Source: Sorangiineae bacterium NIC37A_2 (GTDB lineage: Bacteria > Myxococcota_A > Polyangia > Polyangiales > Polyangiaceae). Taken from it: a stretch of 64,000 nucleotides of DNA. Both the position numbers and the translations under genes were made by a program. The notes beneath the pieces were generated by a model. That model was not told where the DNA came from. It searched no databases and saw only the letters and a list, made by a program, of their open reading frames with translations. Of the stretch, positions 34,705 to 40,398 are shown in pieces (within the stretch, counting starts at the first letter, position 1; each line of letters begins with the position of its first letter). The stretch spans positions 19,476-83,475 of the forward strand of contig NASX01000010.1 of assembly GCA_002085155.1 (NCBI GenBank), written 5' to 3'.

Positions 34705-35568
34705 TCACTTCCCGATCCTGAGGACGAGCTCCCCGGCGTCGTAGGGAGCTCGTACCTTCGCGTCGTTGTCGAAATAGAAGTACACGTCACGCGGCTGCCC
34801 GCTCGGCGCTCGCTCGGCGGTGAGATCTACGCCGCGAGGTTGCCTCCCCTCACGCCAGCTGTTGACCCGCCTCGCCCAGGTGTCGAGCTGCGCGGGGGAG
34901 TAGCCGCTCTCGTAGATCTTCTCCCCGCCATGGAGACGGACATAAACGAAAGGGGCCGTTAGGTCGAAGAACAACGGAAAGTCCGGCGCGTCGGCTACCA
35001 CAAGTCCGATCGAATGCTCTCGGAGCAGCGCGATAAACGCCGGGTCGCAGAAGGAAGGATGACGCAGCTCGACGGCGTGGTGGAGATTCCGATCGGGGCC
35101 CCTTTGAGCGACGAAAGGCGCGACCCGACCGTCGTGCTTCTTCGCGAGGCGCTCGGCTTCCCGGACCGTTTTGGGGAGCAGCCGGAGGAAAGCCTCAAAG
35201 CGCTCGTCCCAGGGGAAGGTTCGCGGAAACTGCCAAAGAAAAGGACCGAGCTTCTCTTCGAGGGAGAGGACACCAGATGCAAAGAAGTTCGCGAGGGGGA
35301 CTTCGACGTCGCGGAGCTTCTTCATGTGAGTGATGTAGCGGCTGCCTTTGACGGCGAAGACGAAGCCCCTCGGGGTCTCAGTGTACCAACGCTGATAAGA
35401 TTCGGGCCGCTGCAGAGAGTAGAAGGACCCGTTGATCTCGACGGTGTCGAAGCGCGCGCTCAGATATTCGAGCTCGCGGCGCTGCGGAAGCTCGGACGGA
35501 TAAAACGTCTTCCGCCAGCCTTGATAGCGCCAGCCCGACACACCCACCCGAACTTTCCCGCGCGCCAT
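34705..35568 (-). CDS. DUF72 family TIM-barrel protein (YecE-like)
   Basis: A 287-aa protein. It starts VRVGVSGWRYQGWRKTFYP, has EINGSFYSLQRPESYQRW, FVFAVKGSRYITH, LWQFP, the HAVELRHPSF strand and FVYVRLHGGEKIYESGY, all hallmarks of DUF72. The family has a TIM-barrel-like fold and no settled reaction; links with DNA repair and Fe-S context have been suggested. ATG 35568 is supported by GAGGAAA directly upstream. It is the last gene of the LigD-Ku operon, 47 nt beyond the Ku stop. Confidence 0.9.
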   Translation of the reverse strand: MARGKVRVGVSGWRYQGWRKTFYPSELPQRRELEYLSARFDTVEINGSFYSLQRPESYQRWYTETPRGFVFAVKGSRYITHMKKLRDVEVPLANFFASGVLSLEEKLGPFLWQFPRTFPWDERFEAFLRLLPKTVREAERLAKKHDGRVAPFVAQRGPDRNLHHAVELRHPSFCDPAFIALLREHSIGLVVADAPDFPLFFDLTAPFVYVRLHGGEKIYESGYSPAQLDTWARRVNSWREGRQPRGVDLTAERAPSGQPRDVYFYFDNDAKVRAPYDAGELVLRIGK

Positions 35569-35614
35569 TTTCCTCGCCTCACGTCGCGCCGCTCGGCATG
35601 AGCGGCGCAGAAAG

Positions 35615-36667
35615 TCAGCTGGCCGCTTTGTGGATCGCCTTGACGAGGTCACCCTTGGTCATGCGGCTGCGCCCCTCGATGCCGAGTTTCTTTGCCCTTT
35701 GGTAGAGAGCTTCCTTCGGCTTTTCGGCGAGGGCAGAGGCGGAGGGCGCTCGGGACGACGCTTCTCGAGTAGAGGCACGCGAAGAGGACGCGGGAGAGTT
35801 CGCCGAGCGCTGCGCCTTGTTCCCTCCTCCCTCGAGCCTTTCCTTGAGCAGGGCCATGAGGTCAATCGGCGGGGGCAGTTCTTCTTCGCTCTCGGGCTCT
35901 GGGGTCGCCTCGATCTCGAGCACGCCTTGTCGACGTTTGGCCTTTCCTTCTGCGAGGCGCGTCAGCGCTTCACCATATTCGTCGGCGAGCTCCTCGCGCC
36001 GGAGCTCGGGTTCCGTCAGGTCGTCGATCGCCGTCAGGAAGGTCTTCACGGAGGCCGCCGAACCTGTTTTCCGAGCGGGCAGCCCCACCATCTCGGGTGT
36101 GCGCACTTCGCTCGCAAAACGCAGAGTCTCGGCGAGCAAGAGCCCCGAGCGCGCCATGATCGCGACGATGTACGCCTTGTCTCGCATCACCATGGTCGCG
36201 ATGCCTACTTTCTTCGTCCGCTCCATCGTCTCGGCCAAGAGACGATAGGCCTTCGTCGAAGAGCCAGAAGGAGCGAGGACATAAGGGCGCACGAAGAAGA
36301 GGCGCGGAAGGTCGTCGAGAGGCACAAAACGTCGGAGATCGATGTCGCGCGTCTTCTCTGGGCGAGCGGAGGCGAGCTCTTCCTCTGTGATCGGGACGAA
36401 CTCCCCCGAGTCGAGCTCAAAGCCGCGCACCAGCTCCTCGTTCGGAACGGGCCGATCGTGCCGCGGGCAAATATAACGACGCCCCACCGCGTCGCCGTCA
36501 CCAGTGACCATACGGAGCCGCGCCTGACGGGGCCTGGTCGCCGAAAAGAAGTCGACAGGAATGCTCACGAGCCCGAAGGTGATCGTTCCGGACCAGAAGG
36601 AGCGCCCCGAAGTCCGCTCCTCTTCGGCGCTCTCTTCCGCCTTCTGTTTGCTCTTCTGTTTAGCCAT
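35615..36667 (-). CDS. ku: Ku DNA end-binding protein (NHEJ), with C-terminal SAP/Rho-N-like tail
   Basis: The intact Ku of the operon (350 aa). It forms a ring dimer that threads broken DNA ends and recruits LigD. RSFWSGTITFGLVSIPVDFFSA is the canonical N-terminus; EEELVRGFELDSGEFVPITEEEL, SARPEKTRDIDLRRFVPLDD and LLLAETLRFASEVR are core barrel signatures. After a Ser/Ala linker the last 40 residues (ALYQRAKKLGIEGRSRMTK) form a SAP/Rho-N-like helix-extended-helix probably binding DNA. ATG 36667 has GGAGAG upstream. It lies 28 nt after the second Ku frame. Confidence 0.93.
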   Translation of the reverse strand: MAKQKSKQKAEESAEEERTSGRSFWSGTITFGLVSIPVDFFSATRPRQARLRMVTGDGDAVGRRYICPRHDRPVPNEELVRGFELDSGEFVPITEEELASARPEKTRDIDLRRFVPLDDLPRLFFVRPYVLAPSGSSTKAYRLLAETMERTKKVGIATMVMRDKAYIVAIMARSGLLLAETLRFASEVRTPEMVGLPARKTGSAASVKTFLTAIDDLTEPELRREELADEYGEALTRLAEGKAKRRQGVLEIEATPEPESEEELPPPIDLMALLKERLEGGGNKAQRSANSPASSSRASTREASSRAPSASALAEKPKEALYQRAKKLGIEGRSRMTKGDLVKAIHKAAS

Positions 36668-36694
36668 GGGTGCTCTCCGTCTTTTCGAGGCGGG

Positions 36695-37498
36695 TTATCC
36701 CCGCGCCGCCTTGCGGCTGTTTGGGTCCTTCTTGAGAGCGGCGAGGCTCTTTTTGAGGGCGTCTGCGACGTTCGCTTCTTTTGCCTTCTTGGCCTTTGCG
36801 ATGCGCAGAGGAATCACTCGCCCGAGGGCCTTCTGTTCGACGAGCTCTCCAACTTGGTCCTCGAAGTCGTCGTGGAACTCGCTCGGATCGAAGCCCCCCT
36901 CGAGGGTTTCGATGAGTTGACGGGCCAGCCGAATCTCAGCCTCCGTCAGCTCTTTGGCCGGAGGGCGAGCAAACCCCTCGAGATCGATGACCTCTTGCCG
37001 GGGACGCATCGTGCTCATCATCAGATACCCGTCCTCGACCCGGAGCGCTCCGAGGTATACCCGCCCGCGCATCACTCAGCGCGCAATGCCCTCCACTCCC
37101 CGCTGCTCGAGGGCCGCCGCGAGCGCGAAGTAGCTTTCGTCGTCACCGTCAGGCCCGAGGTAGTAGGGCCGCTCATACCAAACAGGCTCGACCGCGTTCG
37201 GCGCCACGAAATGGCTGATTTCGATGGTCCGGGAGGGTTTCGGAGCCAGGGAGGCTAGGTCGTCCGCATCCAAGACGACTCATTTCTTTTCATCGAGCGG
37301 ATAAGCCTTGGTCACCTCGTCGCGGGCGACGGGTTCTTCCGTCGTCTTGTCGATCAGCTCTTGGACAACAGGCTCACCGTCTTCCTCGTGGAGAAGACGA
37401 AAGGGCACGCCCCGACCCTCGACGGCTGCGTAGAACTTGACGGGAACTTCTCGCTCCGCGAGCTGAATGACGGCCTTAAAGATCGCGCGAGCGGCCAT
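36695..37498 (-). pseudogene. Second Ku reading frame with two in-frame UGA codons
   Basis: One continuous frame encodes a full-length Ku-like protein of about 267 residues, interrupted by UGA at 37280-37282 (after YPLDEKK, before VVLDADDL) and UGA at 37076-37078 (after GVEGIAR, before VMRGRVYLGALR). No frameshift accompanies them and similarity continues on both sides: AIFKAVIQLAEREVPVKFYAA, TIEISHFVAP, WYERPYYLGPD and EVIDLEGFARPPAKEL. In many Ku proteins the second position is aromatic, so TGG-to-TGA changes are likely; UGA is a normal stop elsewhere here. Options are a young pseudogene, read-through, or three split peptides. The start ATG overlaps the zinc-ribbon gene. Confidence 0.75.
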
Positions 37499-37700
37499 TT
37501 TTGTTCTCCTTTTCGCAGCTGGGACAATTGATCGAGTCCTTCTGTCTCACGATCCAGGCACACCTGGGGCACATCGGCCCATCACAAACAATGCAGCGCA
37601 CCTCTTGCTCGAACACGTAAGTTCCCAAACAATGAGTGCATTCCTCTTCCCCTTCGGCGAGCCAAAGAGCGGGACGCGTGGATTTGTCAGTTGTTGCCAT
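37476..37700 (-). CDS. Small zinc-ribbon protein in the NHEJ operon
   Basis: A 74-aa protein with four CxxC motifs in order: CTHC, CIVC, CPRC and CPSC, enough for two zinc sites. The middle reads TYVFEQEVRCIVCDGPMCPRC. ATG 37700 is preceded by GGAG. Its 3' end overlaps the start of the second Ku frame by 23 nt, and it lies 48 nt after LigD, so it belongs to the operon. I recognise no specific family; a DNA-end or Ku/LigD partner role is inferred only from position. Confidence 0.75.
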   Translation of the reverse strand: MATTDKSTRPALWLAEGEEECTHCLGTYVFEQEVRCIVCDGPMCPRCAWIVRQKDSINCPSCEKENKNGRSRDL

Positions 37701-37748
37701 CGACCTGCTCCGGGAGGAGTGCAATGGCTGTTCCATCGCTGACTTGGT

Positions 37749-40319
37749 TCAGTCCTCCGGAATCCTCTGCCGCACCTCGAAGAAACCCGGCCAAGGGTCG
37801 CCCTTGAGATGGGCAAGGCGCTCGAGGAGCTCTTCGAGGCGGAACTCGCCGCGCAGGTCGCGAGCAAGCTCTTCCCAAGCGACTGGTGTCGAGATCGGAG
37901 CGCCGGGCCGTGCTCGTGTTGAGTAGGCGGCGATCGCCGTCGCTTCACGAGCGTTGCGAAGATAGTCGATGAAAATCTTCCCTTTTCGCTTCTGTTTGGT
38001 CATCGTGGCCACGAAGCGTTTCGGGCTCTCGCGAGTCAGTGTCTCAGCGATCGTCTTGCAGAATTTCTTCGCCTCCGGCCAAGGCGTGACGGGTTCGACG
38101 GGCACGACGAGGTGAACGCCCTTGCCGCCCGTTGTCTTGACGAAGCTCTCGAGGCCGTGTTTTCCGAGCTCGTCGCGCACGTCGAGGGCACCCTCTACGA
38201 GCCGAGCCCAGTCGAGATCGGGATCTGGATCGAGGTCAAAAATCAGCCGATCGGGACATTCGAGACGATCGATCCGGGAGCCCCAGACGTGGATCTCGAG
38301 AACTCCGAGTTGGACAAGTCCAACGAGACCTGCCGCGTCGCGCACGAAGAGGTACGGCTCGCCGCCCTCCGGCATTGGCCATTCGTGGATGCCTTCAGGA
38401 AGGCCATTTTTGCCATGCTTTTGAAAGAAACAAGGAGAACCTTCGCCGCCCGGGCAGCGCACGATCGTGAGCAAACGCTCAGCGACGTGCGGGAGCATCC
38501 GATCAGCGATGGCCACGTAGTACTCGGCGAGATCGCGTTTCGTCAGTCCCTGCTCGTGGAACAGGACACGGTCCGGGTGTGTGAGTGAGCGCAGGAGGAC
38601 AGCGTTCGATCCTGAGCGGCCGGAGCTCTTGGTCGTCGCTCCTTTCGGCTCCTGGACCGCTTCAGGTGGTGCCTCGGTTCGAGGGCTCTTGGGCGAGTGA
38701 CCCTTTCGGGGAGGAGCGTCGGCCGGCAATGGACTCGGCTCTTCCAGGCCAATGTCTTCGGCACTTTTGTCCTCTCGGAGACCTTGAAAGGAGGGATGCC
38801 GGAGTTTTCCGCCCTCGGTCACCTCGGAGAAGGTCACCTCTGCGAGCAGCTCCGGCTTCACCCAGTGGACCCCCCGCGCCTCTGCCCCACGGGGCGCTGG
38901 ATCGAAGGGAGACTTGTCTTGAACGAGCTTCGAGAGGCGCGCTTTGATCTGCTTCAGCGAGCGTTCGCTGAAGCCGGTCCCGACTTTTCCGGCGTACTTG
39001 AGCTTACCTCGCTCGTCGTGGAGCCCGACCAAAAGCGCGCCGAAGCCCCTGCGAGAGCCAGAAGGATCCGTATAGCCGCCGATCACAAACTCTTGCCGCT
39101 TCATACACTTGCTCTTGAGCCAGGCGTGACTCCGCGTGCCCGAATAGGGCGCGTCGACACGCTTCGAGACGACACCTTCCATGCCCAGCTGGCACGCTTC
39201 GGCGAAGAACTCCGGGCCGTGACCCCGCACGTGGTCACTGTAGCGGACAACCCCGCGAAGCTTTTTCCGAGAAGTTCCAAGGAGCTTCGCGAGGAGCTCC
39301 TTGCGCTCGAGGAGCGGAGCTTTCCGAACGTCCACCCCATTTGCGTACAATAGATCAAACACCACGTAGGCGATCGTCGTTTTCTTGGCGCCTCCGCCCC
39401 CGTTCTGGAGCGCCTGGAAGTGAGTGAGCCCCTTTTCATCCAGGGCCACGACCTCCCCGTCGAGAAGCGCATCCTCCAAGGAGAGTTCTGCGAGACTTCT
39501 CACAACACTCGGGAAACGAGCGGCGAAGTCCTTCTTTCCCCGCGACCACAACTTCACCTCGCCGGACCGAATTTCAGCCAAGACTCGATATCCATCGAGT
39601 TTCACCTCATGCACATAGCCATCGCCTTCGGGAGGTTCTTCGACAAGAGTCGCGAGCTGAGGCTCGCGTGCCGCGGGGAACCGCGCTGCCCGGGCAGGCT
39701 CGAATTTTTGCTCGCCGCTCTTCGTCCAGACGGCGCGCGGCGCGCCTTTGACCTCTTCGAGGCTGCGTCCGGAAAGGACACTTCGGGGAGCGGAGGTGAC
39801 GATACTCTCGGCCGCGCTCCGCGCGGCCTCGTCGCGTCCCTTGATCAGGAGCCAGTTCTTGTCGGTCTCCTTCCCGCCGCGGGAGCGAGTGCGCGTGAGG
39901 TGGAAGCGACCGCGCAGCTTCTGGCCGTGCAAGACGAAGCGCAGGTTTCCTTCCTCGAGGGCCTTGTCAGGATCTCCCTCCATCTCCCAAGTGCCCTCAT
40001 CCCAGACGATGACTCCGCCGCCGCCGTATTGACCCTTGGGAATCATTCCTTCAAAGGCGGCGTACTCGAGAGGATGATCTTCGGTCCGCACGGCGAGGCG
40101 CTTGTCCTTCGGATCGAGGCTCGGCCCCTTCGGCACAGCCCAGCTCACCAACACGTCCCCGACCTGCAGGCGGAAATCGTAGTGCTTGGCCCGAGCCGCG
40201 TGGGCCTGAACCACGAACCGGAGCTCCCCTTTCTTCGCGCGCCGACTCCCGGGAGCGGGCTCGGGGGTGCGTTCGAAATCGCGCCGCTCCGCGTACTGTT
40301 GCAGCTTGTCCACGGGCAC
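37749..40319 (-). CDS. ligD: ATP-dependent DNA ligase D (phosphoesterase-ligase-polymerase)
   Basis: The multifunctional NHEJ enzyme that trims, fills and seals ends. Domain order: 3'-phosphoesterase (about 8-165, FVVQAHAARAKHYDFRL and SWAVPKGPS), ligase (about 215-530, adenylated Lys 240 in HEVKLDGYR, LDGEVVALD), and primase-polymerase (about 570-850, LIFDLDPDPD with catalytic Asp pair, KTTGGKGVHLVVP). The length of 856 aa is typical. Start codons are weak: GTG 40319 or TTG 40322. It heads the operon LigD, zinc ribbon, second Ku, Ku, DUF72. Confidence 0.95.
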   Translation of the reverse strand: MPVDKLQQYAERRDFERTPEPAPGSRRAKKGELRFVVQAHAARAKHYDFRLQVGDVLVSWAVPKGPSLDPKDKRLAVRTEDHPLEYAAFEGMIPKGQYGGGGVIVWDEGTWEMEGDPDKALEEGNLRFVLHGQKLRGRFHLTRTRSRGGKETDKNWLLIKGRDEAARSAAESIVTSAPRSVLSGRSLEEVKGAPRAVWTKSGEQKFEPARAARFPAAREPQLATLVEEPPEGDGYVHEVKLDGYRVLAEIRSGEVKLWSRGKKDFAARFPSVVRSLAELSLEDALLDGEVVALDEKGLTHFQALQNGGGGAKKTTIAYVVFDLLYANGVDVRKAPLLERKELLAKLLGTSRKKLRGVVRYSDHVRGHGPEFFAEACQLGMEGVVSKRVDAPYSGTRSHAWLKSKCMKRQEFVIGGYTDPSGSRRGFGALLVGLHDERGKLKYAGKVGTGFSERSLKQIKARLSKLVQDKSPFDPAPRGAEARGVHWVKPELLAEVTFSEVTEGGKLRHPSFQGLREDKSAEDIGLEEPSPLPADAPPRKGHSPKSPRTEAPPEAVQEPKGATTKSSGRSGSNAVLLRSLTHPDRVLFHEQGLTKRDLAEYYVAIADRMLPHVAERLLTIVRCPGGEGSPCFFQKHGKNGLPEGIHEWPMPEGGEPYLFVRDAAGLVGLVQLGVLEIHVWGSRIDRLECPDRLIFDLDPDPDLDWARLVEGALDVRDELGKHGLESFVKTTGGKGVHLVVPVEPVTPWPEAKKFCKTIAETLTRESPKRFVATMTKQKRKGKIFIDYLRNAREATAIAAYSTRARPGAPISTPVAWEELARDLRGEFRLEELLERLAHLKGDPWPGFFEVRQRIPED

Positions 40320-40398
40320 CAAGTTGCAATGGCCGCGCCAAGTGCCTGACCCTAGGGCTCTGTCGGGCGTCTACCTCGCCGCCCTGCCGTGCCGGCCC

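Follow-up and report, generated by a model that had tools for sequence, protein, structure and literature searches.

How should a bacterial gene be read that encodes a recognizable Ku protein in one otherwise undamaged frame and carries two in-frame UGA codons? The frame in question (Ku-A) lies on the minus strand at positions 36695..37498 of the window, i.e., the whole stretch of 64,000 nucleotides that was analyzed, which belongs to a Polyangiaceae MAG (5.0 Mb in 150 contigs, 98% complete, 3% contamination), on a contig of 116 kb. The family assignment follows from G169, a genome of this family, whose contig C208 agrees with the Polyangiaceae record JAICQL010000321.1 in the sequence and position of its Ku pair. 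Translation of the Ku-A frame yields 267 codons followed by TAA. As the preliminary description had stated, it is interrupted by two UGAs, at codon 73 (37280..37282) and again at codon 141 (37076..37078), and has no frameshift. Ku-A is by protein class a Ku and, as a phenomenon, a bacterial gene with in-frame stops. Of the three explanations previously offered for it, the very young pseudogene is the best supported, owing to the lack of accelerated divergence relative to the neighboring Ku-B, the presence of a second NHEJ gene set and the absence of any decoding peculiarity, while readthrough is left without mechanistic support and split subunits appear unlikely. We thus consider that Ku-A is probably a redundant copy that was inactivated very recently by nonsense mutations.

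That similarity to Ku continues through both UGAs in a single frame is borne out by the Pfam match of the read-through frame and by the coding signal on each side of both codons. Residues 17-188 of the read-through product match PF02735, the Ku70/Ku80 beta-barrel domain (E = 7e-31; 108 bits, with the cut-off at 25, covering positions 6-187 of the 190-position profile). Even taken alone, segment 1 and segment 2 match Ku (E = 8e-8 and E = 7e-10, respectively), and segment 3 alone matches no Pfam family. A 3-periodic Markov model, which took over from a simple codon-usage scan that drowned in antisense shadow frames and for which 1.44 Mb of this genome served as training data, recognizes both flanks of both UGAs as coding in the Ku-A frame (posterior at least 0.998 upstream and at least 0.976 downstream). 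When UGA is read as Trp for structure comparison, the AlphaFold model (pLDDT 82.6) places both sites within beta-strands of the predicted Ku barrel, and its best structural matches are solved bacterial Ku structures (Foldseek, 9vnq, E = 1.7e-21, 29% identity). Ku-A shares with the Ku proteins of B. subtilis and M. tuberculosis (PF02735) the same barrel domain, the overall fold (with UGA as Trp) and an adjoining LigD, but unlike them it has two in-frame UGAs and forms half of a tandem pair instead of being a single Ku.

The location of the two sites in the predicted fold also bears on the idea of a split gene, by which the three segments would be made separately through reinitiation and would assemble into a three-piece Ku subunit. 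Potential restart codons are available (GTG and ATG directly after the second UGA, TTG three codons past the first), but both breaks fall inside beta-strands, inspection by eye revealed no properly spaced Shine-Dalgarno sequence at either restart, and no split orthologue was found, all of which makes such an arrangement highly improbable.

The local gene order, all on the minus strand, is LigD, a zinc-ribbon ORF, Ku-A, Ku-B and a DUF72 gene. LigD (37749..40322, 857 aa) is intact, with phosphoesterase, ligase and primase-polymerase domains, and so is Ku-B (35615..36667, 350 aa). The zinc-ribbon-like ORF (37476..37736, 86 aa) overlaps the start of Ku-A and probably represents a genuine gene belonging to the module, as a homologue (38% identical) sits immediately upstream of Ku-A in one relative (genome G242, locus L193, 7941-8162). 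Downstream, the frame of the DUF72 gene (34705..35652) overlaps the end of Ku-B, and no DUF72 homologue was found near the Ku modules of relatives. The arrangement of a short Ku-A with a longer Ku-B directly behind it is found again in six genomes (G127, G038, G181, G242, G479 and G169), four of which (G038, G181, G479 and G242) also have a LigD homologue near the pair. The present Ku-A falls into the Ku-A branch of this LigD-Ku-A-Ku-B module, i.e., a short Ku with a longer Ku paralogue next to it, usually near LigD. Ku-A identity among the module-bearing genomes is mostly 36-46%, and the Ku-A/Ku-B module (35615-40322 in the window; L191, L192, L193, L194, L195 and L034 elsewhere) is conserved across deeply diverged genomes of the phylum. 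At its C-terminal end, Ku-B carries a Rho_N/SAP-like element (residues 313-349, E = 9e-9) that, judging from sequence, could be an extra DNA-binding end.

The conserved adjacency suggests that Ku-A and Ku-B form a bacterial heterodimer, of which Ku-A would be one half, and the module offers a favorable system in which to look for Ku heterodimers in bacteria. NHEJ with multiple Ku proteins is known from Sinorhizobium meliloti (Kobayashi et al. 2008, as cited in PMC5124664) and from Streptomyces ambofaciens, for which Ku heterodimers have been suggested (PMC5124664). These systems likewise comprise several Ku and LigD genes per genome; unlike them, one of the three Ku genes found here carries stops, and the heterodimer is putative. 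The third Ku is located on a separate contig, C7, where an intact Ku of 287 aa neighbors a LigD of 892 aa encoded on the other strand, together a second complete NHEJ set (L052, G000:C7, 5806-9440). One of the earlier readings was a pseudogene kept beside an intact Ku, and an intact Ku is indeed adjacent, but this Ku-B is a different paralogue and not another copy of Ku-A.

Are the UGA codons read as stops? The preliminary description had excluded a code change because UGA is an ordinary stop in neighboring genes, and both points stand: Ku-B and LigD both terminate in TGA, TGA makes up 64% of the terminators in the 1.44 Mb scanned (of 5.0 Mb), and genome-wide searches for two families retrieved 64 kinase and 60 ABC domain matches, 124 in all, without a single internal stop. 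Together with an intact RF2 gene (prfB) and the lack of a UCA-anticodon tRNA, this led us to reject a genome-wide UGA=Trp code. No UCA anticodon occurs among the 45 tRNAs found (the MAG is 98% complete, and a further tRNA could be missing), and a UCA suppressor tRNA was also rejected on these grounds. A selenoprotein was rejected as well, given that the best tRNA-Sec candidate scores 42.5 bits, below the cut-off of 47, at a locus that is an ordinary tRNA-Ser, and that no significant hairpin follows either UGA. In both cases, the RNA fold after the UGA is not stronger than those of shuffled sequences, so that a stimulatory RNA structure was rejected too. Variants of tRNA-Trp(CCA) that read UGA do occur, prominently also in Myxococcota, and three features have been linked to this ability, namely a 4-bp anticodon stem, A9C and G24A (PMC13092985). 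The 4-bp-stem variant would read UGA as Trp; unlike it, the one tRNA-Trp(CCA) of this genome is ordinary in having A9, G24 and an anticodon stem of 5 bp. None of the three features is present, and these variants were rejected.

A wider look at stops gave no sign of a second case. Among 954 stops with an upstream coding signal, 43 are directly followed by coding in the same frame, and, the two Ku stops aside, most of these show a start codon no more than eight codons on, the pattern that adjacent genes would produce. In none of the 10 cases inspected with Pfam (all nine without an early start plus one TGA case) does a domain run across the stop, and no other UGA-interrupted gene was found in the 1.44 Mb scanned. 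Across 184 genomes of the order, Ku-A is the sole Ku match with internal stops.

Against this background, functional low-level readthrough, in which a near-cognate tRNA-Trp reads both UGAs, yielding a little full-length Ku-A with the stops serving as an expression brake, seems a doubtful alternative. Ku-A would then be a rare case of a gene read through at two UGAs in a bacterium that uses the standard code. What speaks for it, besides the existence of UGA-reading tRNA-Trp(CCA) variants in Myxococcota and elsewhere (PMC13092985), is the frame itself, which is intact apart from the stops, shows no accelerated divergence and keeps its coding signal through both sites, and bacterial in-frame stops under some purifying selection have been described (PMC7918605). 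However, the tRNA-Trp has the stem of 5 bp as well as A9 and G24, there is neither a UCA tRNA among those found nor a structure downstream of the UGAs, no other interrupted gene turned up in the scanned 1.44 Mb, and the inefficiency of readthrough would be multiplied by two UGAs in series. A stronger version, in which Ku-A is under selection for a trace-level product made by inserting Trp at two successive UGAs in an organism whose main stop is otherwise UGA, such that termination failure sets the doses of the Ku subunits, we hold to be distinctly unlikely.

That both stops are UGA and both columns are aromatic in relatives speaks for readthrough, but a TGG-to-TGA origin is supported at one of the two sites only. 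Codon 141 corresponds to Trp in all six Ku-A orthologues, in agreement with the TGG-to-TGA change initially proposed. At codon 73 the proposal fares worse, since 61 of 63 homologues have Phe or Tyr in this column and none has Trp, which counts against readthrough as Trp. A Phe/Tyr codon cannot become TGA by one base change; a Trp codon is a plausible, putative precursor at codon 73 just before the stop. A scan of genome contigs retrieved a single homologue, 39% identical. If both sites were Trp codons, both nonsense changes would be Trp-to-UGA by chance in ca. 0.1-0.6% of cases (ts/tv 1-4), or ca. 3% by our own estimate under the extreme bias that all changes are of the C-to-T type; the coincidence was spotted post hoc, many windows having been scanned, and a Trp codon may never have stood at position 73. 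This low chance (roughly 0.1-3%) favors readthrough over a random pseudogene and weighs against recent inactivation, as do the intact state of LigD and Ku-B and the narrow time window required for two nonsense changes without frameshift or visible decay.

How narrow this time window is can be gauged from the divergence of Ku-A. The ratio of Ku-A to Ku-B divergence is 1.00-1.24 for this genome vs 1.13-1.29 among the orthologues, i.e., Ku-A is not accelerated. Its leave-one-out profile score (293 bits) falls in the middle of the range of the orthologues (265-309), and it departs from otherwise invariant residues at 7 of 45 positions (one being a UGA itself), compared with 4-9 in the orthologues. 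In profile scoring, simulated neutral mutations in Ku-A cost about 1 bit each, and given that orthologues spread over tens of bits, up to ca. 30 mutations could hide in the sequence. By count, nonsense changes are ca. 3% of the point mutations in the Ku-A gene, and thus a second stop should arrive only after ca. 30 other mutations (for both the nonsense count and the profile score, the two TGAs were treated as Trp codons). The nearest Ku-A orthologue is only 44% identical, which makes dN/dS unusable for this gene; the lack of acceleration agrees with a pseudogene of very recent origin. It means that either the stops are young or the Ku-A protein is still made, and we infer the former, i.e., that the stops are obeyed and the loss is young. 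According to Belinky et al. 2021 (PMC7918605), bacterial in-frame stops tend to be short-lived, though some purifying selection often acts on them. Ku-A resembles those genes in its intact-looking frame with no visible decay, but unlike them has two UGAs in one gene and no relative close enough for estimates of dN/dS or persistence.

Another possibility is that one or both stops are consensus artefacts or reflect a mixture of strains, the assembly being wrong at these sites or representing a minority allele. The sequence does come from a MAG with 150 contigs and 3% contamination, but the 124 other domain matches are free of stops, which indicates that base errors are not a general problem, it would be unlikely for two independent errors to create UGA twice within ca. 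200 bases of one gene, and the motif common to both sites (TGGGT/TGAGT), considered as a mutation- or error-prone context, is neither depleted nor enriched in the genome. We regard such an artefact as quite improbable.

If recent inactivation is the correct reading, an accessory NHEJ module, consisting of LigD, the zinc-ribbon ORF, Ku-A and Ku-B, would have had its Ku-A disabled by two nonsense substitutions, and the nonsense alleles would have reached fixation or would be those of the dominant strain in the population sampled. Ending after 72 residues, translation would leave no Ku ring subunit, and this loss may be tolerable owing to redundancy with the separate, complete Ku and LigD set on contig C7. 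The locus would then capture the module at the outset of its loss, while LigD and Ku-B are still intact.

Two minor observations accompany these results. Two tRNA-Ala(CGC) genes (L091 and L092) are present on different contigs of the MAG, C32 and C149, reflecting either a duplication or slight contamination. Both UGAs (37280-37282 and 37076-37078 in the window) are followed by GT, a dinucleotide that follows just 7.2% of the TGG codons of the genome, and this shared context is probably explained by Val being frequent after both sites in the family.
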